Below are positions 1,107 through 22,805 of a stretch of DNA of 28,606 bases, one piece after another. The notes beneath the pieces are model-generated. The model had not been told where the DNA came from. It ran no database searches and worked only from the letters and a program-made list of their open reading frames with translations. The translations under genes and the position numbers were made by a program. The stretch is from a virus: IMG/VR virus record IMGVR_UViG_3300037148_000013, positions 1 to 28,606 of that record. One strand, given 5' to 3'. Positions within the stretch are counted from its first letter, which is position 1. Each line of letters begins with the position of its first letter.

Positions 1107-2240
1107 TCAGGCCACCCGAGTCGCTGTCCACCCTGTCGCGCCGGGGAAGCCGAACGTAGGGGTCGTGGCAGGAATCACTTGGCCCCCCCCGTTGGTTTCG
1201 GCGTTAAAAACCAGCGTACCGGCGGCCGTGATGACTACCAGGCAGGTCAGGCTGGGACCGGGGCCGTAGGACTCTTCTGTGCCCGCGCTCTGCTGACCTT
1301 TGAAGGTTGCAGAAGCCGTGCCGACCGCTAGTGAAATTTCCAGATTCCAGGTCCCGGGACCGATGGTCTCCGCCCCAAAGGTCACCCGCCATGTCCCCAC
1401 GGCCAGACTGGGAGAGGTAAATACGACAGTGAGGGTACTGGCAGACAGGGCCAGCCCACTCGACAGTTGTCCGCCCTGTGGGGTGGAGAGCGGATAACTG
1501 CTTGGCGCAGCTGGCAGCCCGTGGTCATGGTCGTTACGGGCGAAGTGAGTTCCGGTCCCGACTACCGCACTAGCCCCGTAGGAATCCGGGCCGGTGGTGG
1601 TCGTCGCCGCCAGAGGAGCCGGGTTCGCCGGGAGTCCGTGGTCGTGGTCCTGGCGGGCATAGTTGGTATTCGACCCCACGACGGCGGCGGCCCCAAACGC
1701 ATCTGGGCCGACGACGGCCGTCGCTGGCGTCCCAGCAGTCCCAGCCGATGCGATCAGGCCCCAGTAGGTCGCGTTGGGAGGTGTGTGGTTGGTGTGGGCC
1801 AGGATGCAGATGTAGGAAGCGCCGCCGAGCGACACACCATCACTGGCGACATAGGCAGTCGCGCTCGACCACGCGCCGAGCCAGATCATGCCGATGGGTC
1901 CAGTCGGTCCGGTCGGCCCCGTCACTGCCGTCGCGGCCAGAGCGGCGAGCGTCCCGGCAGTCGGCCAGTTCCCAACCGGCGTACCGATCGGATGAGCGAA
2001 GGCCGTCTGGACTCCAGCAATCACCTCAGAGGCTCGGGTCAAGGAGGAGAACACGGTCCCGCCGACCACCCCCACCTCTACGATCTCCCAGCCGTTGACG
2101 TTATCCATGATGGTGAGCGCGAAGGTGCCTACGCTCGGGAACTTGGCCGTGTCACCCGGCTCGATGGTGAGTGAGAGGTCGCCCGATAACATAGCGACGG
2201 CCAGGGTCGAAGCTGCTCCGTTGGCTGCCTGTTCGGTCAT
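1107..2240 (-). CDS. Tail fibre protein with collagen-like segment, carbohydrate-binding-like segment and DHDH repeats
   Basis: 377 aa; ATG at 2240 preceded by GGAGA. Residues 1-90 resemble the N-terminal attachment region of phage fibres. Residues 108-117 are a short Gly-X-Y run (GPTGPTGPIG). Residues 120-162 have the aromatic spacing W.G.W..ATAY...D.V..GG.SYIC...H......YW seen in small chitin/cellulose-binding modules. Residues 176-207 and 215-246 are two copies of one repeat ending in DHDHGLP. His-x-His motifs of this kind bind metal ions inside trimeric phage fibre shafts such as T4 gp37. The C-terminal 120 residues look like a beta-sandwich tip. The likely role is host surface recognition. 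It sits between the tape measure and the hub gene, 22 bp after the former. The fibre call is secure; the ligand is unknown. Confidence 0.8.
   Translation of the reverse strand: MTEQAANGAASTLAVAMLSGDLSLTIEPGDTAKFPSVGTFALTIMDNVNGWEIVEVGVVGGTVFSSLTRASEVIAGVQTAFAHPIGTPVGNWPTAGTLAALAATAVTGPTGPTGPIGMIWLGAWSSATAYVASDGVSLGGASYICILAHTNHTPPNATYWGLIASAGTAGTPATAVVGPDAFGAAAVVGSNTNYARQDHDHGLPANPAPLAATTTTGPDSYGASAVVGTGTHFARNDHDHGLPAAPSSYPLSTPQGGQLSSGLALSASTLTVVFTSPSLAVGTWRVTFGAETIGPGTWNLEISLAVGTASATFKGQQSAGTEESYGPGPSLTCLVVITAAGTLVFNAETNGGGQVIPATTPTFGFPGATGWTATRVA
1503..1715 (-). repeat. Two tandem 32-residue coding repeats (DHDHGLP repeats) in the tail fibre gene
   Basis: Copy 1 spans 1620-1715 and copy 2 spans 1503-1598, separated by 21 bp. 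Each encodes GPD.(F/Y)GA.AVVG....(Y/F)AR.DHDHGLPA.P. The protein identity is high and the DNA has diverged at third positions, so the duplication is not recent. Confidence 0.7.
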
Positions 2241-2262: not shown

Positions 2263-4662
2263 TCACCCGGTATTGCTCCCAGCCGTCGTAAGCCCCTGGT
2301 GGCGCATCCCCTTGCCCATGTACTTGGCGACGATGGTGGCGAGGGTCTGGCCGTCCAACTGGAGGGTGATCGGCACGGTCAGGTTGGAGGCGGTGGCCGA
2401 CACAGCCGAAGATCCTCCACCACCGCCAGACAAGACGCTAGCGCTGCTCAGTGGGGCCACACCGCTCGCAAACTGCGCGGTGAGCTGGGATAGCGGGACG
2501 ACCACTTCAGGGCCGCTCTCGCCCACTAGGGCCAGGGTCGGCTTGGTCACCAGCCCGCCGGTCGCCAGGCCCATCGCCTTCAGCGCACCACCGATCACCG
2601 GGAGGTTATTGAGCGCGCTCTTGATGTCCCCGAGCACGGAGCTGCCCAGGCTGCTAAGAGCGCTCCCGATCTTGGCTGGCAGGCCCGCGAACCAGGTCAC
2701 GATGCCGCCGATCATGCCGCCCACGTCACTCGTCACCGTGGTCCAGAAGCCCTTGAGGGTGGATACCACAGTGCTGCCCATCGTCTTGACGAAGCCGATC
2801 ACCTTGCCGGGCAAGCCCGAGAAGAAGTTGACCACCCCGGAGATGAACCCGCTCACATCAGAGGTGACCGTCTTCCAGACTCCCACCAGGAACTCCACGA
2901 TGGCGACGATGGTCTTGACGGTGGCGATGATCAGGGTGATCGCAGTACCGATGACAGTCGAAACGATGTCCCAGGCCACCTTCACCGCCGTCGAGATGAT
3001 GTCCCACTCGACCCCGAGGTAGGCCACCAGGATGGTCAGCGCCACCTTGATAACGGACGAGATCACAGTCCAGGCCACCGAGATGATGGCCGAAACCACG
3101 GCCCACACCGCCGTCGCGTCGGCTTGGATCTGGTCCCAGTGAGCCGAGATCCAGGTCGTCACGTCGGCCACGATCCCCTTGGCGAAGGTAATCGCATCGG
3201 CAAACGCACCCTTCACCAGCGACACGAAGGCATCGACCGCATCCTTGAAGCCGGTGACATGGGTGTAGAGGAGGACGAAGGCAGCGATGAGGGCCACGAT
3301 GCCCACGATCACCCAGACCATCGGGTTCGCCAGCAGCGAGGCGTTCAGGGCATCATTGGCTCCCGTCGCCGTGTCGGTCCCAACGGCAGAGGTGGCCTGC
3401 GCTCCACCGAACAGCGTGGTGATCGCCGTCACCTTCCCCGCGATGAAGCCGAAGGTGGTGACCCCCAGCACGAGCGCAGCCACCGCCCCGGCTACCAGTC
3501 CCAGCTTCGTCACGAGCGACGTGTTGGCCCCGATCCAGTCCAGGACGTTCTTGAGCACCGGCATCACGGCTGTGACTATCCCCATCACTACCGGCAAGAG
3601 CTTCTGCCCGATCATCGTGGCCGCATCACTCAGGGAAGCCTTGAGGAGGTCCATCTGGTGGGCGAAGGTAGCCGCCTGCTTCTGGGCGGCAGCGTGGGCC
3701 GCACCGTTCTTGGTCACCTCGTCGGTGTACTTACTCAGGACGGCAGGCCCGGCCATCATCGTCTCGGCCAACTTGATCGAGGCGCTTCCGAAGCCGAGGG
3801 TCTTGAGGGTCGCCGCGTTCGTCGCCGCCGAGTGCCCAGCCAGGATCGGCTGGAGTTCAGCGAAGATCGTCTTGAGCGGCAGGAGCTTCCCGGTGGCATC
3901 GGTGAAGGAGACACCCGCCGCCTTCTGGGCAGCCGTAACCGCAGCGGTGGGGTTGATAATCCCGGTAAAGGCAGAGCCCAGAGTCGTGAGAGCCTGCCGC
4001 CCTGTCTCGCCGTGCTTGGTCAGGTCCACCAGCAGGCCGCTCATGGCCCCAATGGGGGGAGCCGCTGCACCCATCTGGGCACGGACTCGCACCATGCTCT
4101 GGGTCAGGGCATCCACGCTGGTCCCGGTTAGGCGACTGGCCGAGAACAGGATGTTACTGGTCGCAGCGGCATCCTTAAGCGGCTGCTGGTACGCCAGCAT
4201 GATCTTCGACAGATCCGAGGTCGCACTCGCCAGGCTGGTACCGGATGCCTCGGCCAGGTCAGAGGCCGCCTTCATCACCAGCGTTGCCTGGGCTGCTGTT
4301 AGAGCGTGACCGGTCAGCAGTTCCAGTTGCCCGGAGATGGGCGTGTACGCCTTCATCATCTCCGTGGCCGAATAGACAGACGTGCCCATAGTGGCTAGGA
4401 AGGCAGCTGAAACCTTACTCGCCGCCGCGACGGACACATCGGACTGGGCAGCCAGGGTAGCGGTAAGCGACTGGTACTGGATGGCCGACTTCAGGGAGAC
4501 CACACCGATGGCGACCACCCCGGCGATGACCGCTGCCGCTCCCAGGGCCAGCATCGCCTTCGCCAGTCCACCCAAGCTCTTGGTGGCGTTGTCGGCGTTA
4601 GTCGAGGCTAGATCATTGGCGCGAACGGTCACCAACAGGACGGCTTCATCCACCAGTGCCAT
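2263..4662 (-). CDS. Tape measure protein
   Basis: 799 aa, the longest tail gene here. The ATG follows the TAA of the HNH gene without a gap. Tape measure proteins line the tail tube, fix its length and help DNA enter the cell. Evidence: an Ala/Val/Gly-rich hydrophobic stretch at residues 38-57, further hydrophobic helices near 355-375, 387-408 and 449-467, then a long amphipathic helical region with regularly spaced Trp (..AVWAVVSAII.., ..VAWTVIS.., ..VAWDIVST.., ..VWKTVTSDV.., ..FWTTVTSDV..), and a C-terminal ATGGLVTKPTLALVGESGPE-type segment common to many phage tape measures. At about 0.15 nm per residue this predicts a tail near 120 nm (rule of thumb). Position after the tail assembly chaperones is canonical. 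I see no lytic transglycosylase or peptidase motif. Confidence 0.95.
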   Translation of the reverse strand: MALVDEAVLLVTVRANDLASTNADNATKSLGGLAKAMLALGAAAVIAGVVAIGVVSLKSAIQYQSLTATLAAQSDVSVAAASKVSAAFLATMGTSVYSATEMMKAYTPISGQLELLTGHALTAAQATLVMKAASDLAEASGTSLASATSDLSKIMLAYQQPLKDAAATSNILFSASRLTGTSVDALTQSMVRVRAQMGAAAPPIGAMSGLLVDLTKHGETGRQALTTLGSAFTGIINPTAAVTAAQKAAGVSFTDATGKLLPLKTIFAELQPILAGHSAATNAATLKTLGFGSASIKLAETMMAGPAVLSKYTDEVTKNGAAHAAAQKQAATFAHQMDLLKASLSDAATMIGQKLLPVVMGIVTAVMPVLKNVLDWIGANTSLVTKLGLVAGAVAALVLGVTTFGFIAGKVTAITTLFGGAQATSAVGTDTATGANDALNASLLANPMVWVIVGIVALIAAFVLLYTHVTGFKDAVDAFVSLVKGAFADAITFAKGIVADVTTWISAHWDQIQADATAVWAVVSAIISVAWTVISSVIKVALTILVAYLGVEWDIISTAVKVAWDIVSTVIGTAITLIIATVKTIVAIVEFLVGVWKTVTSDVSGFISGVVNFFSGLPGKVIGFVKTMGSTVVSTLKGFWTTVTSDVGGMIGGIVTWFAGLPAKIGSALSSLGSSVLGDIKSALNNLPVIGGALKAMGLATGGLVTKPTLALVGESGPEVVVPLSQLTAQFASGVAPLSSASVLSGGGGGSSAVSATASNLTVPITLQLDGQTLATIVAKYMGKGMRHQGLTTAGSNTG

Positions 4663-5265
4663 TTAGCCCACCAGCCTCAGTTGACTTGCGACGGCGTCTC
4701 TATTCGACTTCCGCTGATTACAGTGGTCGTGAGCTAGCTGGACATTGGCCTTGAGGTTATTGCCTCCCTCGGAGAGCGGAATAATGTGATCGATCGACGC
4801 TCTCTGAGATGAGCGGCCCTTGGTCTTGGTCGGAACTCGCTTGTAGCAGAGTTGGCAGATCCCTCGATCTCGCTCGTATATCTCGGCCAGCGTGTAAGGC
4901 TCGGTTTCCACCCCGGTCTTACGCGCTCGGTATGCCCGAGTCGTGGTCCTGCCGCTCTCCGGGTGAGCGGCCGACCAGGCCCTCATGTAGTCCTGGAGAC
5001 TGCTGCGATGCGCGATCTTATAGACCGCGTTGTACTCCTTCGCCCGGTCGCGCCGGATAGCCGCCCGCAACTCCTTCTCCTGCCGATGAGCCTCGTCCCA
5101 GGCGGCCTTGGCCTCGTCGGTCCGGTGCGCCGCTAGCCATCCCGCCCGATAGGCAGCAACCTCGGCCTGATGTACCGCGTCCCATGCCCGCTTCTGGGCG
5201 TTTCGCTCCTCGCGATGCTTGGCGTGGTAGCGGCTGTATCTGGTGCCGGGTAACTTCTCTCTCAT
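4663..5265 (-). CDS. HNH endonuclease (free-standing, homing type)
   Basis: 200 aa. Residues 1-115 are charged and helical with recurring W/Y...H patterns (RAWDAVHQ, AGWLAAHR, AAWDEAHR, RAWSAAHPE), a probable DNA-binding arm. The nuclease core is at residues 134-189: CQLC (Cys137, Cys140), SIDHIIPLSEGG (Asp159-His160), N170, and HDHCNQRKSNR (His181, Cys182, Asn183). This is the classic zinc-stabilised HNH (beta-beta-alpha-metal) site. It lies exactly between the chaperone stop (9 bp upstream) and the tape measure start (0 bp downstream), disrupting neither, which is typical of self-propagating HNH genes placed in conserved phage operons. A role in phage replication or packaging is less likely here. 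Confidence 0.88.
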   Translation of the reverse strand: MREKLPGTRYSRYHAKHREERNAQKRAWDAVHQAEVAAYRAGWLAAHRTDEAKAAWDEAHRQEKELRAAIRRDRAKEYNAVYKIAHRSSLQDYMRAWSAAHPESGRTTTRAYRARKTGVETEPYTLAEIYERDRGICQLCYKRVPTKTKGRSSQRASIDHIIPLSEGGNNLKANVQLAHDHCNQRKSNRDAVASQLRLVG

Positions 5266-9502: not shown

Positions 9503-10030
9503 TTACGCCGAAGCCCTTGGCCTCGGAGCTCCTGGAGCGGTGACGGCAGGAACTTTGGCCCCAGTCTGCGGAGTGACGGGTGCCTTGGCCTTGACCTTCG
9601 GCTCCACCACCGCTGGGTGGTCCTGATTAGCTGCCAGAACGACCTCGCCGTCCAGCACCACAGCCTGATCCTTCCCGCCGCTATGGCGCTTGCCCACAGG
9701 CAGCCCCTTCCGCTTCTCGGGCTCATCCGCCAGCACCACTCCGGGCAGCTTCTGGCCGTCAGCGGTTTCACCTGCCTGGAGCACGCTCGACTGTAGGAAC
9801 CGGTCGGGGGCAGGGTCACCCGCCGAGCCATGACTGACCCCGACGCGGCTGTCCATGCCCTGATCCTTCAGCCGCTTCTCAGTCGCCTGGATGTTGCGGG
9901 CGTCATCGCTGTTCGCGCTCACCCGGAACACCGGGCCCCGGTAGACACCGACCCCGTTCAGGCCAGCATCGCTGATCCGCTTCTCCGCGATCTGGGCGAT
10001 GCGCTCGTCCTCGCTCTTGGTCTCAGCCAT
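9503..10030 (-). CDS. Hypothetical protein, disordered Lys/Pro-rich C-terminus
   Basis: 175 aa; the ATG overlaps the end of the HNH gene by 8 bp, with AGGAGA just upstream inside that gene. The first 55 residues look like a small alpha-beta domain (IAQIAEKRISDAGLNGVGVYRGPVF..S), the rest is low in complexity and rich in Lys, Pro, Ala and Gly (VVEPKVKAKAPVTPQTGAK). Not recognised. Position between capsid and connector suggests a minor capsid or neck protein. Confidence 0.72.
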   Translation of the reverse strand: MAETKSEDERIAQIAEKRISDAGLNGVGVYRGPVFRVSANSDDARNIQATEKRLKDQGMDSRVGVSHGSAGDPAPDRFLQSSVLQAGETADGQKLPGVVLADEPEKRKGLPVGKRHSGGKDQAVVLDGEVVLAANQDHPAVVEPKVKAKAPVTPQTGAKVPAVTAPGAPRPRASA

Positions 10031-10652
10031 TGATTCTCCTTAGGTACTCGGCAGCGGCTTCAAGTCGAACGGGGTCGTCACCGAATTTGCCCAGCCCCAA
10101 GTTGCACGAGTTGCAGAGCAGACCGCGCACCATCCCCGTCGCATGGTCGTGGTCCAGATCGAGCTTGCGCCGACTCTCTGAGACTCGGCAGATGGCGCAT
10201 TTTCCATCCTGCTCCCGGAGCAGTCGGTGGTAGGCCGAGACCGCCTCAGGACCGTACTTACTGGCCAAGGTCCGCGCCCAGCCTCGGAGAGGGTCTTTAT
10301 CGTACTGAGCATGATCGGCCAGAGCCTTCTGCGCGCGGTGTGTCCGTTCCCAGTTCCGCTTGTAGGCTCGAACATGTTCCGCATTGCCCTCACGCCAGGC
10401 TCCGATGGCTTCCTTGCGCTGCTCAGAGTGCTCAGCCCGCCATTGGACCATGTAGCACTTCTGGCACAGGCCCTCTGCCCAGTGAATCGCCTCCGGGTGT
10501 CCGCAAGTGACCACCTGGGCGATGCTTCCCCGCCGCGGAGATGCCTCCAGGGTGCCATCGCGATAGGCCCGAACGTAACAGGTTCGGCATAACCCCCGGC
10601 CCGCATAGGGCTTGTCCGGATGGCAGTCCGGTCTCCGACTGGCCTTGCGCAT
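10023..10652 (-). CDS. HNH endonuclease, endonuclease VII-like, with two N-terminal zinc modules
   Basis: 209 aa; ATG at 10652 with GGAGGG six bases upstream. Residues 10-30 and 50-70 are two copies of a small zinc module, C.HP......GLC..CY...(Y/W)R. A charged helical linker follows (residues 75-145). The nuclease core is CAIC (152-155), LDLDHDHATG (164-173) and GLLCNSCN (177-184), matching the recombination endonuclease VII branch of HNH nucleases. T4 endonuclease VII resolves branched DNA before packaging, but free-standing relatives like this in structural operons are usually mobile homing-type genes. It sits between the capsid gene and the neck genes. Confidence 0.9.
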   Translation of the reverse strand: MRKASRRPDCHPDKPYAGRGLCRTCYVRAYRDGTLEASPRRGSIAQVVTCGHPEAIHWAEGLCQKCYMVQWRAEHSEQRKEAIGAWREGNAEHVRAYKRNWERTHRAQKALADHAQYDKDPLRGWARTLASKYGPEAVSAYHRLLREQDGKCAICRVSESRRKLDLDHDHATGMVRGLLCNSCNLGLGKFGDDPVRLEAAAEYLRRING

Positions 10653-10794: not shown

Positions 10795-13700
10795 TTAGTT
10801 CGTGATCGAGCTGTTCAATCCGAGGATTGCCGCGAAGGCAGTGGGCTGGCGAGCTGCGGTAAAACCGAGTCTCTCCTCCCCACGATACCACGTCTGGTTG
10901 GCCTCGAACGAAGTCCCCGCCTCGTTGGACACGTCAACGGTGATCCCCGAACGCTCGAAGATCCACGCCTCGTCCATGTTGGCGACGATGGCTGGCGCGT
11001 CCGTGCCCCCGGTCGGGGTCAGAGTTCCAGCCGCGTAGGTGGTGCCGATGTTCGCATCCGAGATGACCGGCAGGCCCCACACGGAGCCAACCGCAACCGG
11101 AGTCTGAGCCGCCCCACCCATGAAGGTGGCAGGTCCACCCAACTGGGGAGCCATCAGCTGGTTGTAGCCAGCCTCGAAGATGTATCGCCCAGTGGAGTCC
11201 TTAGCCTGCCGGAGCGTACCCACCACTCGCGGATGCACGATCACGCAGTTCGGGTCACCGAAGTAAGCCGACTGGATCGCCGTGATCGCCAGCGAGAGCG
11301 CGTCACCGATGCCCGACCCACCCGAGCTGTCGGTAGCGTAGGTCACGGTCAGGATGCCGGTGGTCGCCAGGATACCCAGCGGCATCCCGGAGCCGGAGCC
11401 CGCCAGGAACGCCTGGTCCTCAGCGCGGCCCAGGGTGCGCCCCAGGTCGTTGCGGAGAATCTGATCGACTGCGGGGGACGAGTCCTCCAGCAGCTGGTTG
11501 GAGACCTTCGAGATGCCGGCCAGCGCGTAGATCGGAACGCTGATCTGGCTGAAGGTCTGGTCCTGGGATGGCTTGGCTGCGTTCTCAGCCACCCACCCGA
11601 CGATGGCGATCCCAGTCTCACGCGGCACCAGCACCATGTTCGAGTTCACCCCACCGATGACGGTGCAGAGCGGGCGAACCTTGGCAGCCGCGATACGCAG
11701 CTCAGCCAGTCCTTGCTGGTAGTACTCGGGCGGAACGAGGTATCCGCCAGAGCTGGTCGAACTCTCGCCTACGGCCTTGGTGCCGTAGCCCTCTCCGTAG
11801 GCTTCCTGCGCTGCCTTCTGGTCCTCCTGGAGCCGACCAAAGGCGTTGAAGTCACCACGCCGCGAGTCGCGCATGTCCTTCAGCCAGTCCGAGATCCGGC
11901 GAGCTCCACCCGCCTTCGCACCGGCTGTCGGGTGCTGGAACTTGCGAGGGGTGACCAGATTGGCCCGCTTGGCCTCTACAGCCGCAGCCACCATCGCCTC
12001 CAGCTTCACCGCGTCAGCGGCATCCTGAGCGGCCTTGGTCTCAGCGACCTTCGCCTCGTCCTCCAGCCGCTGGGCAGCCTTGGTCTCGGCCTCAGTTGCC
12101 ATGTCACGCTCCCGCTTCTCAGCGAGTAGCGCCTCCAGTTGCTTGGCCTGGTCCAGGCCGAATCCCTTGCCCTCGGTCTCCCTCGGAGGGGCCTGAGACG
12201 AGGCACCGGCCTCGGGGATCTCGTTGCCGTTCTCGTCCTTCATCTTTGGCTTAGCCTCCTTGGTGCCCGTAGACCATCCGGCCATTACGGACTTGACTTG
12301 TGCTGCTAGGTCGGGTCGCTGGTTGGCGAGCATGATGCCCACCGCCTCGTTAACAGCGGCCTTCCCAGATGGCCTCTGCCCCTCCTCATCGCTGTCATCA
12401 CCGGTCGCATCGAGCGGGATCGCCTTGGCTTCCTCTGCGAAGTCCTCCAGTATTCCCTGCATCGTGGCGATCTTGTCAGCGTCGGAGGCGCTGCCCTGCA
12501 CAAGTTCAGCCACCGCCTTTTGGACGGCTTGGAGCAAGTCTGACACAGTATCGAACCCGTCCGCATCATCCGGCCCATCGCCAGACGGTGGAGCCGAGCC
12601 CGCCGCGTCACTCGGGGGAGGGTCCGAGCTAGCCTTGGACCCGGCCCCACCTGAGACGCTGGTATTGGGGAGCAGCGATGCGGGGAGCGCTCCGGCCATG
12701 CTCCCAGCAGGAGCGAGCGGGGTGTACTTATTCTTCATCGCCGGGACCGGGAACCCGCCCTTGCCCGAGTGGTCATGGTTCAGAGGGGCAGGCCCGTGCT
12801 GGTGCGCGGAGCTCATCCCCGAGTGGCGATGGAGTCCATGAAGGTGAGGCAGCTCAGCCCCAGGGTGATCATGGGTTCGCCTGCGGGTCGCCATTCCAGG
12901 CCGTCCGCTCACCGGGCCGTGGTTGTGACGGAGGACGGCTGGCAGCATGGCGATCTTGCCCTCGGCTGCCCAGGTCAGGCCCTTCTGCTCAGCCACCTCG
13001 AACACCGACAGGGTATTACTGGGCACGGACACAATCGAGGTCTCGTGCCAGTCCATGCTGTCGATGATGCCTGGGCCCTTAGACCTCCCGAAGATACCGC
13101 CCACCGAGAAGGTGCGGTAAACCCGGTTCTTGAGGTCATGGTAGGCCTTGACGTGCCAGGGCTCGGTGCCAGGAGGCGGCTCGGGCACGAAGTACTTGGT
13201 GCCGACTCCGATGTGGTCCAGGACGGGGCGCTCCATCAGGGTACCGATGGGCTTCAGCCGGTCGTGGCCCACGATCAGCACCGGGTTGAGCATGTAGGTG
13301 CCCAGGGACTTCTCGAATGCCTGCCGCTCGAAGTGCTCCTTATCCCGGTCGTTGATCCAGGTGTTGACGTAGCCCTTCAGGATCAGCCCGTGGCCCTTCG
13401 GGGTATCCACCTCGTCAACCGACTTGACCTCGCCGTAGGCGGTGAACGGGACTCCCTTACCCTCCCCGGCATACTCCAGCAGCGCCGGGGGCGGATCTGC
13501 GTCGATCTTCCCGTACAGCGTCACCAGCTTCCGGGCGGCGGCCTTCTTGGAGGCAGGGCTGGTATCGACCTGGTTCAGCCTCCCAGCCGCAGAGGTCACA
13601 GCGCCTGGGTTCAGCTTCCCGTTCGGCTCCTGCACCGGCAAGTGGCAAAGACCCTGCACCTTGTCTTGCCCCGCCGGGTTGTCATCGATCAGGCAGGCAG

Positions 13701-14022
13701 CGCAGTAGGCATCGGTGTCGGGGTACTCAGAGGCCGCACCGGTCCACGTGCCAGCCCCGCTCACGGGTGCCTTGGCCGGGTCTCCAGCTAGCACTCCGGC
13801 GACCGCCTTGCCCTGGGCTGCGTACTTGGCCTTGTCCTCATCACTGAGGTCGCTGGCGTTCCCCGAGCCGTGGCAGGCAGGACAGGTGACGTGGCCGTCC
13901 TTGATCTTCCCGGAGCCCCCACACAGCGGGCAGTCAGCCGGGGTCGCCTTGCCGTTCAGGTACTGGGGCGGGGTGATCGCCTCAGCGGTCGCTCCTCCAG
14001 CCGCCTTGCCTTCTGGCTTCAT
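10795..14022 (-). CDS. Prohead protease - scaffold - major capsid polyprotein (HK97 type)
   Basis: 1075 aa in one frame. Residues 31-54 hold two CxxCxGxG motifs (CPLCGGSG, CPACHGSG), as in the DnaJ zinc domain. Residues 90-175 match a helical module seen in other phage proteins (YCAACLIDDNP, CHLPVQEPNGKLNPGAV, AARKLVTLYGKI). Residues 190-350 are an HK97-type prohead protease with probable catalytic His253 (VGHDRLKPIG) and Ser306 (RTFSVGG). Residues 366-418 form a linker with twelve histidines. Residues 490-690 are acidic and helical with a coiled coil (625-686), like a scaffold or delta domain. Residues 750-1075 are the HK97-fold capsid (SGGYLVPPEYYQQGL, VGWVAENAAKPSQDQTF, GMPLGILATTG). The protease should cut the helical region from the shell. 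Separate genes are usual for these functions. Confidence 0.93.
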   Translation of the reverse strand: MKPEGKAAGGATAEAITPPQYLNGKATPADCPLCGGSGKIKDGHVTCPACHGSGNASDLSDEDKAKYAAQGKAVAGVLAGDPAKAPVSGAGTWTGAASEYPDTDAYCAACLIDDNPAGQDKVQGLCHLPVQEPNGKLNPGAVTSAAGRLNQVDTSPASKKAAARKLVTLYGKIDADPPPALLEYAGEGKGVPFTAYGEVKSVDEVDTPKGHGLILKGYVNTWINDRDKEHFERQAFEKSLGTYMLNPVLIVGHDRLKPIGTLMERPVLDHIGVGTKYFVPEPPPGTEPWHVKAYHDLKNRVYRTFSVGGIFGRSKGPGIIDSMDWHETSIVSVPSNTLSVFEVAEQKGLTWAAEGKIAMLPAVLRHNHGPVSGRPGMATRRRTHDHPGAELPHLHGLHRHSGMSSAHQHGPAPLNHDHSGKGGFPVPAMKNKYTPLAPAGSMAGALPASLLPNTSVSGGAGSKASSDPPPSDAAGSAPPSGDGPDDADGFDTVSDLLQAVQKAVAELVQGSASDADKIATMQGILEDFAEEAKAIPLDATGDDSDEEGQRPSGKAAVNEAVGIMLANQRPDLAAQVKSVMAGWSTGTKEAKPKMKDENGNEIPEAGASSQAPPRETEGKGFGLDQAKQLEALLAEKRERDMATEAETKAAQRLEDEAKVAETKAAQDAADAVKLEAMVAAAVEAKRANLVTPRKFQHPTAGAKAGGARRISDWLKDMRDSRRGDFNAFGRLQEDQKAAQEAYGEGYGTKAVGESSTSSGGYLVPPEYYQQGLAELRIAAAKVRPLCTVIGGVNSNMVLVPRETGIAIVGWVAENAAKPSQDQTFSQISVPIYALAGISKVSNQLLEDSSPAVDQILRNDLGRTLGRAEDQAFLAGSGSGMPLGILATTGILTVTYATDSSGGSGIGDALSLAITAIQSAYFGDPNCVIVHPRVVGTLRQAKDSTGRYIFEAGYNQLMAPQLGGPATFMGGAAQTPVAVGSVWGLPVISDANIGTTYAAGTLTPTGGTDAPAIVANMDEAWIFERSGITVDVSNEAGTSFEANQTWYRGEERLGFTAARQPTAFAAILGLNSSITN
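12241..12261 (-). promoter_or_regulatory. Possible internal ribosome binding site and start for free capsid protein
   Basis: AAGGAGG at 12255-12261 precedes an in-frame ATG at 12241-12243 by 11 bases. Starting there gives 482 residues (from Met594) beginning MKDENGNE, just before the coiled-coil segment, i.e. the length and layout of a stand-alone HK97-type capsid precursor. The spacing is slightly long and AAGGAGG encodes Lys-Glu in frame, so chance is possible. Confidence 0.4.
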
Positions 14023-14039: not shown

Positions 14040-14903
14040 CTACGCGGCCCTTGCGGCCACGAGTTGCGGTACGAAGATGCGACGCTCTGGCTTCCAGAGC
14101 TTACGGACCGGCGCCCAGAGGTCACCGACTCGCTTCGAGTTGAGCATCACGATTGGGTTGCCCCCCGCGACGGCAGGAGACTTGAAGGTCATTATCGCGA
14201 CGCTCCAGTAGGCAGCGATTCCGAGTGTTCCGCCGAGGGTGAGTGTCGCCGTGGAGGAGAGGATCTGGTAGAAGGCGAACTGACTGGCCCAATAGGTGGA
14301 GCTAAGCTCGCCAGTTCGCCCGGTCTCGGCGTTCCACCCCGTGGTAACGCTCCCGATGGTCTCGCCTGTCGTGCTGGACAGCGTCCCGATGACGCCAATG
14401 GCGATCTCGCTGGCCTGGGCCGTGGCCGAGCCCGCAGTTAGGGTCGGGGCCGTGTTCTTCGCGGTCAGCGGGGTTGCAGGTGCGAACGCGGTGACATCGA
14501 CCGGAGATGTATCCGTGCCGCCGATCTCAAAGAAAGTGCAGGCCAGTCCGCAGGTGGCGGCGCTCTTGGCCGTCACCGTGGTGATGGCGGCAGAACTCAG
14601 CTTGTAGAAGATCGTGGTGGTGAGGTAGTTGGGTTGCCCCACTCTCCTGCCGTCGCGGGGGGCAACCCAATCGTGATGCTCAACTCCTAGCGAGTCGTGG
14701 CCCTCGGCCGTCACGCCCGAGGCCCAAGTCTGGGCCGAACTGTCTGTCATCGAGAGCGTGATGGTGCTGCTGGCACTCACCCCGGTGACGCAGCAGACCA
14801 CGAGGTGCCCGACTGTCACTGGGGAGATGGTCGGCGCGACGGAGGTGGCCCCAGCCGTCCCGGAGTTGCCGAGGCTCACTGCCTGCACTACCGAGAGCGC
14901 CAT
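14040..14903 (-). CDS. Fibre/decoration-like structural protein containing an inverted repeat
   Basis: 287 aa; ATG one base after the previous stop. Ser/Thr/Ala-rich, strand-forming sequence (AVSLGNSGTAGATSVAPTISPVTVGHLVVCCVTG, TTTIFYKLSSAAITTVTAKS, LACTFFEIGGTDTSPVDV) resembles phage beta-sandwich fibre or virion-surface proteins. Residues 69-87 (HDSLGVEHHDWVAPRDGRR) are unlike the rest: charged, and encoded by an inverted copy of the DNA that encodes residues 242-259. The C-terminal 45 residues are basic. Location between the portal and capsid genes points to a head-associated rather than tail-associated protein, by inference only. Confidence 0.72.
   Translation of the reverse strand: MALSVVQAVSLGNSGTAGATSVAPTISPVTVGHLVVCCVTGVSASSTITLSMTDSSAQTWASGVTAEGHDSLGVEHHDWVAPRDGRRVGQPNYLTTTIFYKLSSAAITTVTAKSAATCGLACTFFEIGGTDTSPVDVTAFAPATPLTAKNTAPTLTAGSATAQASEIAIGVIGTLSSTTGETIGSVTTGWNAETGRTGELSSTYWASQFAFYQILSSTATLTLGGTLGIAAYWSVAIMTFKSPAVAGGNPIVMLNSKRVGDLWAPVRKLWKPERRIFVPQLVAARAA
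14126..14180. repeat. Left arm of a 55-bp inverted repeat (53/55 matches)
   Basis: Reverse complement of 14643-14697. Nine bases match, two differ (14135-14136), then 44 match without error. On the minus strand it encodes residues 242-259 of the fibre-like gene. The arms are separated by 462 bp and both lie inside one gene. Confidence 0.93.
14643..14697. repeat. Right arm of the 55-bp inverted repeat
   Basis: Partner of 14126-14180. On the minus strand it encodes residues 69-87. The same sequence read in the same phase occurs on the plus strand at the left arm, so an inversion between the arms would keep the reading frame across the junction. Confidence 0.93.
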
Positions 14904-15465: not shown

Positions 15466-16791
15466 CTAGCCAACGATCACGACGCGGTAAGCATTGCTCG
15501 CGGGAGCCGTGGCGAAGTTGAAGGTGACCACGCTGGTAGAGGTGGCGGTCCAGTCCACCAGCACGAAGTTACCCGAGGCGTCCATGACCGTCACCTGCAC
15601 GTCAGTGGTGCCCAGCGAGTGAGTGACCGCGATGGCGGTGAGCGAGCCGTTGCCGATGCTAGCGGCGTACTTTGCCACTCCCGTGGTGGTGACCTTGCTG
15701 AACTGGACCCAGGTTTCCGAGGTGGTGTCCACGGTCTCCACCAGGCCGGTCATCACCCAGCCGGAGCCGATGTTCGCCGTCCCTTGCTCGGTCATCACGA
15801 ACGCGCCGAGCTGAGTGCTGGCAGAGGCGAAGTCGGTGGGCCGGGACCACGCGCCCGAGGCAGCTACCCAGATGCCGTTCTGGCTGGCCGTCGCCTGCGC
15901 CGTCGCCAGGACACGATCACCAGCGGAGACCGTGATCCCATCAATCGTGAGCAGGCCACCTGTGGCCGGGACAGCCGAGAGGGCGCTGGTGGCTGTCACC
16001 CGCACCGATGGCTTGGCGTCAAGCCCCTGGGCCACGCCGTCCACATACCCCTTGGTCGCCAGGTCAGAGGCCGCCGTTGGGGTGGTGCCGTTCTCGGCTC
16101 GGTAGCCGCCGAGGTTGATGACACCCGTCATGGTGCCGCCCGCTAGCTGCAGGTAGCTCGCCAGGTCGGTCGTGATCGCGGCCAGGATGCCCCGGCCCGA
16201 GATGCCAGAGGAGAGCGCGTACCAGACGGTGCCAACGTAGATCAGGCTCACCGCCTCGCCCGCAGCCACGGTGATGTTGCCCGTCACCGCGAAGTTGTTG
16301 ATGGTCGCTCCGGCACCAGGGGCCAGGGTCAGCGAGACCGACGACAGGTTCAGGACCGTATTGGCCGTAGATACCTGGGGGGTGACCGGCAGGGTGAGTG
16401 TCTGCCCGGAGGTAGAGCCGGTGAAGATGGTCTCCTCGCCTGCCAGCAGGGTCGCGGTAGCCGTCCTCGCCGTGGCGTTGGCCAGCTCAGCCGCGATGGC
16501 CGCCGAGGCCGCCGTCTGGGCCACGCCCTGGACCTTGCCGACCGTCGTGGCGCTGGGCAGGCCGGTTACGTCACCGACCAGGGTGAATGAACTGCCGTCG
16601 AAGTTGAACCAGGCGGTCCCGTTGTAGAACCGGAGCTCCTGGAGCGCGGTGTCGTAGTAGAACTGCCCCGCTGTCGGGCTGCCGGGAGCCGAGGCAAGCT
16701 GGTGTCCGATGGGGTTGCGTAGCTCATTGCTGAGCAGGTCGATGAACGCGGCGAATGAGTCGCCCTGTCCGAGATGCTTGGTAAGGCTCAT
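15466..16791 (-). CDS. Fibre protein, 441 aa, with virion-attachment-like and tip-like domains
   Basis: ATG at 16791 with AGGAG four bases upstream. Residues 29-63 (GHQLASAPGSPTAGQFYYDTALQELRFYNGTAW-type) are a very common phage fibre segment, G(S/T)P..GQ.YY.T....L..YNGTAW. The middle (about 120-375) is Thr/Ala-rich with repeated strands, including YLQLAGGTMTGVINLGGYR and ASDLATKGYVDG, which are fibre-shaft motifs. The last 66 residues (VTHSLGTTDVQVTVMDASGN to YRVVIVG) are a fibre-tip-like domain with an H.LG..DV signature, also found in the neighbouring collagen-like protein. It probably forms a trimeric fibre. Whether it decorates the head or the tail is not decidable from sequence; gene position favours the head. 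Confidence 0.82.
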   Translation of the reverse strand: MSLTKHLGQGDSFAAFIDLLSNELRNPIGHQLASAPGSPTAGQFYYDTALQELRFYNGTAWFNFDGSSFTLVGDVTGLPSATTVGKVQGVAQTAASAAIAAELANATARTATATLLAGEETIFTGSTSGQTLTLPVTPQVSTANTVLNLSSVSLTLAPGAGATINNFAVTGNITVAAGEAVSLIYVGTVWYALSSGISGRGILAAITTDLASYLQLAGGTMTGVINLGGYRAENGTTPTAASDLATKGYVDGVAQGLDAKPSVRVTATSALSAVPATGGLLTIDGITVSAGDRVLATAQATASQNGIWVAASGAWSRPTDFASASTQLGAFVMTEQGTANIGSGWVMTGLVETVDTTSETWVQFSKVTTTGVAKYAASIGNGSLTAIAVTHSLGTTDVQVTVMDASGNFVLVDWTATSTSVVTFNFATAPASNAYRVVIVG

Positions 16792-18470: not shown

Positions 18471-20789
18471 CTACCCGGAACTGCCATCCGCCGTGTCCGC
18501 AGAGGAGGTCGTGGCCGAGTCGTAACTGGGGGCGAAGGTGATGGTGCCGTTGGGGTGCTCAGAGTCAGCCCACTCGTCGGCGGTCTCCAGGTCCACGGTC
18601 TGGCCGTCCCGCGAGGCGCACATCTCGTCCACATCGCCGTCGTAGACCAGAGTGCTCGGAACGCTGGCCTGGGCATAGCTCGAGAGAGACCCGGCGTTGT
18701 AGGCGGTACTCATCTCCGTTCGGGCCACTCGCTCAGCCTGCCAGTCGGTCGCTCCCTGCATCACGTCCATAAGGCTGGAGGTCACGCCCAGGTCAGCGTT
18801 GCCATTCACGGCATCCAGGGCGGTGCCACCGACCTCGATGGTCTTAGTCACCACATCCGAGATCGCATCGATCTGGGTATCAGCGATGGTCGAGACCGAG
18901 CGCAGACGGGCAGCCATGAGCGGCAGCCGCTTAGCGACCTCAGGGTCAAGGTGGCCCGAGCCGGGAAGGGTAGGCGCAGCGAGACCGAGCGAAGCCTTGG
19001 TCCCGACCACCCGAGAGCTCGAAGCCGCCCCAGCGGTGAACCCAGTGCCTCGCACCGTCCCCAGGGCAGCGGCCAGGGGCGACTGGTCCTCCAGCAGCGT
19101 AGCGACGGCAGCGCGGCGCTCGTCAGCGTCCTTGATCGCCAGCAGCTTCGCCACCGCAGCCGCGCTTAGAGCGGGTGCCAGGAACGCCCTCATGCCTTCA
19201 GCCACCAGGCGCTTGGCTCGCACCTTCTGCGCTCCCCAGAGTCGGGCCTTATCCGCTACCAGGGCATGACCCGGCACCACGGCCTTGGTCTCGATCACTG
19301 GGCGGTGGGCCCTCACTCGCTGGAAGGGCGACGGCGCAGCCTTAGTCCCGATGCCCCGCTTCACCGCAGCGGCTCGGACCTCCCGTACCCAGGCATCGCG
19401 CTCCATCTGGGCTCGCTCCTCTGGCGTGATCACCGACTTCATGTCCAGCAGCTTGAGCACCGGCTTGCCCACGGGCGCTCCCTCACCAGGCGTCTCAGGA
19501 CTGGCAGGCGCAACCGGAGCCGGTGGAGCGGGCGGGTTGAGGATCGCATCGGCGTTCGCATCGGCTATCGCCCCGAAGTCAGCCAGCGGAGTGATCACCA
19601 GCAGGTTCGAGAGCACCAGCACCTCGCCAGCCTTATTCGGAAGCGGCTCTGCACCCACGTAGACCCGCACCTCGTCCAGCGTGAAGCCCGCAGCCAGCAT
19701 CAGCCCTGCATTAGTCAGCTTGTCGGTGTCGTCCTCGAAGTTCCGCCGCTCGTACTGGAGCGTCCAGTCAGGCTCGTAGAGGTCCACGAGCGGCTGGAGC
19801 CCGACTTCCCAGCGCTTGAACTTGGGCTCCATCGTCTCGGTCTCGAAGGTCTCGTCCGCGTCCTCGGCCTTGTACTGGGCGTTCTCCAGGATGCCGATCT
19901 TCGGCCCCGGCACTCCCCAGACGGCCAGGATCGTGTCGCGCTTGCCCTTATCGAGGTTCACCAGGTCGAGGTTCTTCATCCCCTCAGCGATGGGGGTGTA
20001 GTGCAGGCCCTTCGAGAGAATGGCCGTCCTGATCCTGTTCTGGTCATCCCGATTGCTGGCCTGCCACTCCCGCTTCAGCCGGTCGAACTCCTCGTTGCTC
20101 AGATAGTCATCGGTCTCCAGGACGCCCGTGATCTTCCCGCCCGACCTCCAATAAGCGAACTCGGTCCGGTCCATCGCATCCTTGGTATCGAGCAGCATGG
20201 TCATGGCCTCGATGTTGCCCATGCCGTAGTAGGTGTCGGTCGGGTTCGGCAGCTTGATATGGATCACTTCGTCGGCGTCGTAGGGCACCAGGATCTGACC
20301 CGGCAGGCCGAGCCCGGAGGTCGAGCCGTTCACGTCGTAGACGTAGCCCTTAACGTAGTTCACCGGGTCGGGGATGACCCGCATATTGGCCGGGTTCGGC
20401 AGGTACATCTCCCGAGGTCGCCCATAGGCGTCCCGCTCCTCCAGGGTGATGTAGACGTTCCCGGTCAGCTCCAAGTACAGCTCGGCCAGCTCCCAGAAGG
20501 AGAAGCCGTCCTGCACCGGGTTCGGCTGGGCGAGGAGCTGGAGCAGCGGGTTGTTGGGGTCCACCACCGGCTCGTCATCGTTGGTGGTGTCGATGAGCTG
20601 CTTGGTATTGCTGGCGAAGTAGTAGGCGATCAGGCTGGCGCAGGCATTCACCCAGGGAGTCTTGAACGCCCTCAGGTACGAGGAGTAATCCCGGTACTTC
20701 GACTGGACCTGAAACGCCTGGAGCGTGTTGGGGACGGATGCCTGCTGAGAGCGGTCGGCCTTCGCCTCAAGCCGGATCGGAAGGCTCAT
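18471..20789 (-). CDS. Portal protein fused to a MuF-like minor head domain
   Basis: 772 aa; TGATG overlap with the upstream gene. Residues 1-415 are an HK97-type portal: SYLRAFKTPWVNACASLIA (38-56), WELAELYLELTGNVYI (99-114), a DEVIHIKLPNPTDTYYGMGN clip/stem segment (173-192), and VWGVPGPKIGILENAQYKAEDA (290-311), the typical portal motif before the C-terminal helices. Residues 418-440 are a Pro-rich linker. After a helical region, residues 684-757 look like a Mu gpF/SPP1 gp7 minor head domain (ERVARTEMSTAYNAG; DGDVDEMCASRDGQTV; HPNGTITFAPSYD). Portal rings are the dodecameric DNA gate; MuF proteins are injected or internal head proteins. The two are usually separate genes. Confidence 0.93.
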   Translation of the reverse strand: MSLPIRLEAKADRSQQASVPNTLQAFQVQSKYRDYSSYLRAFKTPWVNACASLIAYYFASNTKQLIDTTNDDEPVVDPNNPLLQLLAQPNPVQDGFSFWELAELYLELTGNVYITLEERDAYGRPREMYLPNPANMRVIPDPVNYVKGYVYDVNGSTSGLGLPGQILVPYDADEVIHIKLPNPTDTYYGMGNIEAMTMLLDTKDAMDRTEFAYWRSGGKITGVLETDDYLSNEEFDRLKREWQASNRDDQNRIRTAILSKGLHYTPIAEGMKNLDLVNLDKGKRDTILAVWGVPGPKIGILENAQYKAEDADETFETETMEPKFKRWEVGLQPLVDLYEPDWTLQYERRNFEDDTDKLTNAGLMLAAGFTLDEVRVYVGAEPLPNKAGEVLVLSNLLVITPLADFGAIADANADAILNPPAPPAPVAPASPETPGEGAPVGKPVLKLLDMKSVITPEERAQMERDAWVREVRAAAVKRGIGTKAAPSPFQRVRAHRPVIETKAVVPGHALVADKARLWGAQKVRAKRLVAEGMRAFLAPALSAAAVAKLLAIKDADERRAAVATLLEDQSPLAAALGTVRGTGFTAGAASSSRVVGTKASLGLAAPTLPGSGHLDPEVAKRLPLMAARLRSVSTIADTQIDAISDVVTKTIEVGGTALDAVNGNADLGVTSSLMDVMQGATDWQAERVARTEMSTAYNAGSLSSYAQASVPSTLVYDGDVDEMCASRDGQTVDLETADEWADSEHPNGTITFAPSYDSATTSSADTADGSSG

Positions 20790-21254: not shown

Positions 21255-22805
21255 TCACTCCCAGCCGCCTCGCCTGGTAGGTGACGCCTCGCCCATCGGT
21301 CGCCAGTTCCCTCGGGTCTCCTCCTCGGTGCCACCGATCCTGATGCCAGCCGAGATCGCCGGGGCGCAAGCCATGATGACCGCATCAGCCCGGTCGGTCG
21401 AGCGCTTCAGCCGTGACCTGATCTGGTCCTTGCTCTCGATCTGGATGTGGCCCGAGCTGGTTGTCTTCCAAGTGGGGGCGACCAGCTCTGCCAGCAGGAA
21501 GTCGTCGGGCGGCAGGGCCAGCAGCGCTCCACCCTTCTGGTCCGGGTCCAGCATCTCGCGCATCGCCCACCACGCTCCGGCCCTGGCGTTCAGGAAGGCC
21601 AGCTCGCCACTCCGGTCGCGCCAGCCGGTGCGCTCAGAGGCATTAAACGGCACCACCGCCAGCCCGTCCTCCCTCAGCCTGTCCACCACACCCGCACCGA
21701 TCCCGATCACGTCCACCACCGCCTTGGCCTTCGGGTCGTTCCTCAGCAGCCGAGCCAGCACGCCCGTGATCTGCATGGTGTCCGCCCCAGGGACAGCGGT
21801 GAGCTCCCCGACGTAGGGCCACTGCTTACGGGCGAGGATAGTCTCGTCGCCTCCACCTCTCGCTATGTCAGCGCCCAGGATCAGCGGCTCAGCCGGGTCG
21901 GGCCAGGTAGTCTCCCAGCGCAGCATCGCCGCCTCCACCCAGGCCAGCGGGATCACCGAGTCCACGGCGTCAGCGGCGAAGTTGCCGAGCACCCGGTTCT
22001 GGAACACCGCCGACTGCTCACCGAAGTCGCGGCGCATGTCGTCTACCCATTCCTTGCTGACCCGCCCAGCCGCCATCGCCTCCTCCAGACTCACGTGGCG
22101 GGCCCACCAGCGTTCCTTGCCTGGCTTCCGGGCGTGGATGTCGTAGAAGGTGCCCACCGGCTTACCCGGAGTCGAGATCGCCAGGCACCACGCCTCGCTG
22201 GCGGTGTCGGGCCCAGCCCCGGCGAAGGCACCCTCGATGGACTCCCACGTCTTGGGGCCGATCATCTTGGCCTCGTCCAGCACGTAGAGCAGGTAGTCGG
22301 CATGAGCTCCCTCGATGGCTTCCGGCTCATCAGGGGAAGCGGAGAAGGCCGCACCGTGGCCAAGCTGGAGGTTCCGCTTCAGCAGCTCCGAGTGCGGGTC
22401 GAACGGTGGCCGGCCGATCTTCCCCCAGTCCAGCAGGCGGGCCCACTTGTGGACCTCGGGCCAGAGGTACTGCGCGAGCTGGAGCCACTGGCTGGCGGTG
22501 GTCGGGATCTTCCAGTCGAGGTGCTGCTCCTCTCGGGTCAGGGCGAACGCCTCGATGGCGATGGAGGCGATGGTGGACTTCCCCAGGCCGTGCGGACCTC
22601 TAACCGCCACCCGCTGACGGGCACACAGCGCATCGAGGATCTCGTCCTGGTACGGGGACAGACTCTTTCCCTCGGGCCAGCGGATGCAGTCATGGGCGAA
22701 GGCGGTGAAGTCGTAGAAGTACCGCTCCAGCCGGAAGCGGTGGATCAGGGGCGGGGCGCTCCGGTCGATCAGCTTCGTCCACGTCCCGCCCAGGGCAGCG
22801 GTCAC
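21255..22805 (-). CDS. terL: Terminase large subunit (TerL), packaging ATPase and nuclease
   Basis: 516 aa from GTG at 22805. The ATPase domain has Walker A GPHGLGKST (70-78), Walker B YVLDEA (174-179; Asp177, Glu178) and a coupling-type STPG (211-214). The RNase H-fold nuclease domain has acidic positions at ILGADIARGGGDE (Asp313, Asp320), VVDVIGIGAGVVD (Asp365) and STDRADAVI (Asp471 or Asp474). TerL docks on the portal, pumps DNA into the prohead and cuts the concatemer. Length and motif order are normal. No usable Shine-Dalgarno precedes the GTG; a 13-codon frame ends over it (GTGA), so translation may be coupled. Confidence 0.96.
   Translation of the reverse strand: MTAALGGTWTKLIDRSAPPLIHRFRLERYFYDFTAFAHDCIRWPEGKSLSPYQDEILDALCARQRVAVRGPHGLGKSTIASIAIEAFALTREEQHLDWKIPTTASQWLQLAQYLWPEVHKWARLLDWGKIGRPPFDPHSELLKRNLQLGHGAAFSASPDEPEAIEGAHADYLLYVLDEAKMIGPKTWESIEGAFAGAGPDTASEAWCLAISTPGKPVGTFYDIHARKPGKERWWARHVSLEEAMAAGRVSKEWVDDMRRDFGEQSAVFQNRVLGNFAADAVDSVIPLAWVEAAMLRWETTWPDPAEPLILGADIARGGGDETILARKQWPYVGELTAVPGADTMQITGVLARLLRNDPKAKAVVDVIGIGAGVVDRLREDGLAVVPFNASERTGWRDRSGELAFLNARAGAWWAMREMLDPDQKGGALLALPPDDFLLAELVAPTWKTTSSGHIQIESKDQIRSRLKRSTDRADAVIMACAPAISAGIRIGGTEEETRGNWRPMGEASPTRRGGWE

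Follow-up and report, generated by a model that had tools for sequence, protein, structure and literature searches.

Fusions of a prohead protease with a major capsid protein have been published for Arthrobacter phages of clusters AM, AU and AN and for the Rhodococcus phage RRH1 (PMC5513430), as well as for the Gordonia phage EpicDab (PMC9671378). Dozens of phage records from Arthrobacter, Gordonia and Rhodococcus also carry the annotation "major capsid and protease fusion protein". An earlier sequence-only reading of the DNA studied here regarded such fusions as rare, a view not supported by the published cases, the many annotated records and the 33 fused genes among the 205 capsid-bearing ORFs that were tested. 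The protease-capsid arrangement is already known, and the gene in the window (the whole stretch of viral DNA analysed, 28,606 nucleotides) is an unusually long and elaborate variant of it. Like the window gene, the actinophage fusions from Arthrobacter, Gordonia and Rhodococcus place an S78-type protease before an HK97-type capsid in one frame, with no separate capsid gene. They differ from it in length, 515-689 aa in the 15 fetched compared with 1,075 in the window, and many belong to genomes of 14-17 kb. In addition, none matches 80% of the window protein in tblastn, and those inspected have no His-rich linker.

The window gene also resembles gp4/gp5 of HK97 in its fold, in the delta-like scaffold on the capsid N-terminus and in a K/A-type maturation site. 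In HK97, however, the protease (gp4) and the capsid (gp5) are encoded by separate genes. The closest protease sequences in phage records, at 30% identity, are the T5-like prohead proteases of the Demerecviridae, but these occupy a separate gene, and the one fetched (L006) has neither a zinc ribbon nor a His-rich linker. A 516-aa chain labelled "major capsid protein" in the PDB entries 9sz9 and 9sza matches the protease profile weakly over residues 8-165 (E=0.017), and these entries are possibly experimental structures of a fused protease-capsid. An assignment of 9sz9 to phage BlueFeather was checked and ruled out.

Organization of the fused gene

The fused gene lies on the minus strand, from 14022 down to 10795, and runs for 1,075 codons from ATG to stop without an internal stop, within a stop-to-stop frame of 1,101 codons. 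Its parts are as follows.

10795-14022, minus strand: complete fused gene (1,075 codons and the stop)
13873-13932, minus strand: zinc ribbon CPLC-x12-CPAC, residues 31-50, with the same spacing in the fused relative L007
13471-13713, minus strand: helical module, residues 104-184, from the predicted model and without a family match
12988-13431, minus strand: S78-type prohead protease, residues 198-345, from tblastn, alignments and fold
13264-13266 and 13105-13107, minus strand: codons of the catalytic H253 and S306, respectively, from alignment
12769-12927, minus strand: His-rich disordered linker with 12 His, residues 366-418, from composition and the predicted model
12274-12546, minus strand: helices predicted with low confidence, residues 493-583
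11956-12156, minus strand: long helix of the delta-like scaffold, residues 623-689, from alignment and the predicted model
11773-11778, minus strand: predicted maturation cleavage site K749/A750
10798-11775, minus strand: predicted mature HK97-fold capsid subunit of 326 aa, residues 750-1075, from profiles, PDB matches and fold

GC3 remains between 0.68 and 0.91 throughout the frame (0.69-0.73 at residues 376-600), and the other two forward frames contain 33 and 41 stops, so nothing points to a frameshift. The earlier proposal that a protease, a scaffold helix and an HK97 capsid share one uninterrupted frame is confirmed, with the minus strand as a detail absent from that claim. A frameshift or stop at residues ~430-600, sought as a possible refutation, was not seen, as the frame is open there and codon-position GC is continuous. 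What sets the gene apart is its size, with 749 residues preceding the capsid domain, and its extra parts. A search of the 28.6-kb window found no separate capsid gene.

The four cysteines near the N-terminus (C31, C34, C47 and C50) make up two CxxCxGxG motifs, which had been read as DnaJ-like. The motifs are present, but the DnaJ interpretation did not hold. The DnaJ central zinc domain scored 16.8 bits against a cut-off of 32.7, through one match of 26 positions and with two motifs rather than four. A single zinc ribbon fits better, because L007 keeps the C-x2-C-x12-C-x2-C spacing but lacks the DnaJ GxG. Since this ribbon is common to L007 and the window, it is probably useful. Ribbons of the form C-x2-C-x14-C-x2-C also occur elsewhere in the protein in the protease ORFs of three other loci (L095, L111 and L123), and zinc ribbons may be recurrent on prohead proteases. 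The helical module that follows includes the YCAACLID sequence, found at residues 106-113 as previously described, and is predicted with a pLDDT mostly of about 75-83 in its helices. It had no match in a Pfam search and only chance-level matches in tblastn; one of these, 26 residues at 54% identity to a halovirus prohead protease (E=9), is a lead only. The module is absent from L007.

The protease domain is secured by tblastn and fold, with the sequence profile below its threshold. Pfam PF04586 gave E=0.061 with the whole protein and E=0.0024 with the domain alone, whose 18.4 bits miss the Peptidase S78 cut-off of 21. The protease of the split sister L009 passes that cut-off (52 bits) and is 45.5% identical to the window protease. 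Residues 183-349 matched T5-like prohead proteases in tblastn at 30% identity, with a best E of 5e-9. His253 and Ser306, which had been proposed as active-site residues, are both invariant in two alignments of prohead proteases. In the predicted model, the pLDDT is mostly above 90 at residues 198-335, and the best matches among PDB folds are the herpesvirus assemblins. Thus, the structure prediction that had been suggested as a check found a protease fold. On this basis, the domain is an S78-type prohead protease, with predicted activity.

Residues 347-490 are predicted to be disordered and include the 53-residue linker with twelve histidines, a composition that no 53-residue stretch matched in 2,000 shuffles of the protein. 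The linker was found in none of the other loci examined, including L007. The earlier suggestion that it and the zinc ribbon make assembly metal-dependent is a conjecture. The coiled coil anticipated ahead of the capsid appears as the long helix predicted at residues 623-689. The capsid domain itself, at residues 759-1063, is identified with certainty by profile, PDB sequence matches and fold. Specifically, it matches Pfam PF05065 with E=1.3e-45 (156 bits, cut-off 24.2) and TIGR01554 with E=4.3e-57 (194 bits, cut-off 27.5), its sequence matches in the PDB are the RcGTA and HK97 capsids, and its AlphaFold model matches the D3 and HK97 capsids with E from 5e-18 to 1e-16. The HK97 fold that had been claimed is thereby confirmed. 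K749/A750 aligns with K103/S104, the maturation cleavage site of HK97. The K-A pair is invariant in close relatives, and K-A or K-S is found in much of the wider set of fused and split genes. Cleavage is therefore likely to occur at K749/A750, judging from the alignment, and this predicted site falls inside the range of ~690-755 in which cleavage had been expected.

The neighborhood is that of an ordinary head and tail region.

21255-22805: terminase
18471-20789, minus strand: portal protein (772 aa) whose C-terminus carries a MuF-like (head morphogenesis) domain
15466-16791, minus strand: 441-aa protein between the portal and capsid genes, matching head-decoration and tail-fibre families
14040-14903, minus strand: protein of 287 aa encoded just upstream of the fusion, unmatched in Pfam and PHROG
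10023-10652, minus strand: endonuclease VII-like gene directly behind the capsid fusion
4663-5265, minus strand: HNH endonuclease gene inside the head-tail region
2263-4662: tape measure
1107-2240, minus strand: tail protein; CBM5/12 chitin-binding-like module, a weak match (E=4.4e-5) slightly short of the cut-off

The portal-MuF protein gives this genome another fusion of head genes. The tail protein with the chitin-binding-like module is perhaps a host-surface binder.

Fused and split relatives

Relatives among viral contigs were found with an alignment of capsid domains, while two viral-contig scans with the raw fused protein returned no match and another genome scan gave distant matches only. 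The nearest capsid, at 56% identity, is that of L007, a fused gene of 693 aa; no second capsid gene was found in its 88-kb record. The next five (L008-L012, 42-49% identity) have split genes: an S78-type protease ORF is found upstream of the capsid and, in L008 and L009, is its immediate neighbor. Only one in-frame stop codon separates the two frames in L009. The window and L007 group together with good support (SH-aLRT 96) in a tree built from 109 capsid domains. The same tree, a quick one with some long branches, implies 13 changes between the fused and split states by parsimony, at least nine of them on strongly supported branches. The protease and the capsid are already in the same frame in 48 of 153 split pairs. 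Several split loci (L153-L156, L143, L145 and L201, in addition to L009) have both genes in one frame with a single stop codon between them, and read-through of that stop would yield a fusion product without any mutation.

A candidate internal start and the number of products

Two features near the junction of the protease and the scaffold suggest how a free capsid protein could be made.

12255-12261, minus strand: AAGGAGG, a Shine-Dalgarno-like (SD) sequence before Met594, -11.3 kcal/mol, spacing 11 nt
12241-12243, minus strand: ATG of Met594, candidate internal start of a free 482-aa scaffold-capsid, from SD pairing and position

The anti-SD pairing at Met594 is the best of all in-frame starts in the gene, and 17 comparison gene starts reach at most -9.8 kcal/mol, but the spacing of 11 nt is long. 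The strongest internal ATG of L007 (-10.3) also ranks first in its gene. Met594 lies 156 aa from the K/A pair and the L007 start 141 aa, compared with 127-137 aa for the capsid starts of the split relatives L008, L009, L011 and L012. Among 23 non-redundant fused genes, the internal ATG with the strongest SD falls in the protease-capsid junction in 18, where 4.85 were expected (P=1.3e-9). Compared with ATGs inside the capsid domain, junction ATGs also score better, both for SD energy (P=1e-8) and under a synonymous-codon test (P=1e-4). Because the fused genes in these statistics are mutually related, all the P values overstate the significance to some degree. The median SD energy is -7.35 at the fused junctions compared with -5.5 at the capsid ATGs of in-frame split relatives, so that the fused genes are no weaker. 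For the window itself, synonymous-codon support was rejected: 278 of 300 shuffles were equally good (mid-p 0.46), so the encoded amino acids suffice to account for the SD, with Lys-Glu-Ala forcing AAGGAGGC. The same test of L007 was likewise no better than chance. In the 15 published actinophage fusions the junction signal is weak (9 observed, 4.2 expected, P=0.007) and finds no support in the synonymous-codon test; a convincing junction start is missing from SallySpecial, EpicDab and Idaho. Among cultured Gordonia phages with a fused gene, GMA5 and McGonagall have candidate junction starts at Met265 and Met276, respectively. A literature search of incomplete coverage found no internal starts described in protease-capsid fusions.

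Based on this evidence, we infer, with somewhat more confidence than doubt, that the gene makes two products sharing a C-terminus. The major product would be the free 482-aa scaffold-capsid begun at Met594 behind AAGGAGG, and the minor product the full-length protease-scaffold-capsid of 1,075 aa. Most of the prohead would consist of free subunits, with the protease carried in, covalently attached, by a full-length minority. Once the prohead is assembled, cuts by the protease at K749/A750 and elsewhere would remove the scaffold and the protease itself, and a normal HK97 shell of 326-aa subunits would remain. The presumed origin of the gene is a pair of neighboring protease and capsid genes in which the protease stop codon was lost and the capsid gene kept its own start.

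The sequence-only reading had envisaged one protease per capsid subunit unless free capsid is also made. The first part is unlikely here, because free capsid is probably also made from the internal start, and it is the exception that seems to apply. A protease on every subunit would also create a space problem at T=7, which a free capsid product removes. By our own estimate, which assumes the T number of the phage and an inner radius of 195-210 A at T=7, the 749-residue pre-sequence on all subunits would fill 107-133% of the T=7 cavity and 71-89% of that at T=16.

That overfilling of the T=7 cavity is one reason to doubt that full-length protein is the single product, with one tethered protease per subunit or with most of the proteases cut off during assembly. 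The recurrence of junction starts across fused genes is another, and this explanation appears unlikely, although it deserves real weight: annotators name one product, a shell would have room for smaller fusions of 515-690 aa, and in several actinophage fusions no good junction start is present. It is a good deal less probable that only full-length protein is synthesized and that an early cis cleavage in the linker, at about residues 347-490, frees the protease ahead of assembly or in the course of it and so lowers the load in the shell. The predicted disorder makes this region a plausible place for a cut, and herpesvirus pUL26 provides a precedent by freeing its own protease through autocleavage at the R-site (PMC4498786). 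However, no cleavage motif was identified in the linker, and such a cleavage would leave the recurrent strong junction start unexplained.

An assembly or sequencing artefact that merged two genes is nearly refuted. One lost stop codon would suffice to produce it, and the closest relatives other than L007 are split; against this, codon-position GC is continuous and fused genes recur in phage isolates. Moreover, the fusion is not an assembly error because L007, an independent contig, is fused in the same place. For protease-capsid fusion genes in general, the case for two products, with the capsid start kept at the protease-scaffold junction and a minority of subunits carrying the protease, appears evenly balanced. 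If it holds, the retained start would make the stop between the genes almost dispensable, which would account for the frequent interchange of fused and split states.

Comparison with nested scaffold genes

The number of proteases that enter the prohead, and the route by which they do so, is a basic question of assembly in tailed phages and herpesviruses. If free capsid is made from the internal start, the fusion would set the dose of protease genetically, and the present annotation of dozens of phage capsid genes, with a single product each, would be incomplete. Nested genes of this kind have counterparts elsewhere. In the C/Nu3 genes of phage lambda, a nested in-frame start gives a product that shares the C-terminus of the scaffold. 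In the herpesvirus UL26/UL26.5 pair, the long product contains the protease and the nested in-frame product shares the C-terminus of the scaffold (PMC4498786). The two-product proposal for the window resembles both systems in that the protease is confined to the long product and the nested product shares its C-terminus. In UL26/UL26.5 and C/Nu3, however, the two products have only scaffold in common and a separate protein forms the capsid, whereas in the window the common part would include the capsid. Overall, the gene would be a phage parallel of UL26/UL26.5 in which the capsid itself has become part of the nested product.
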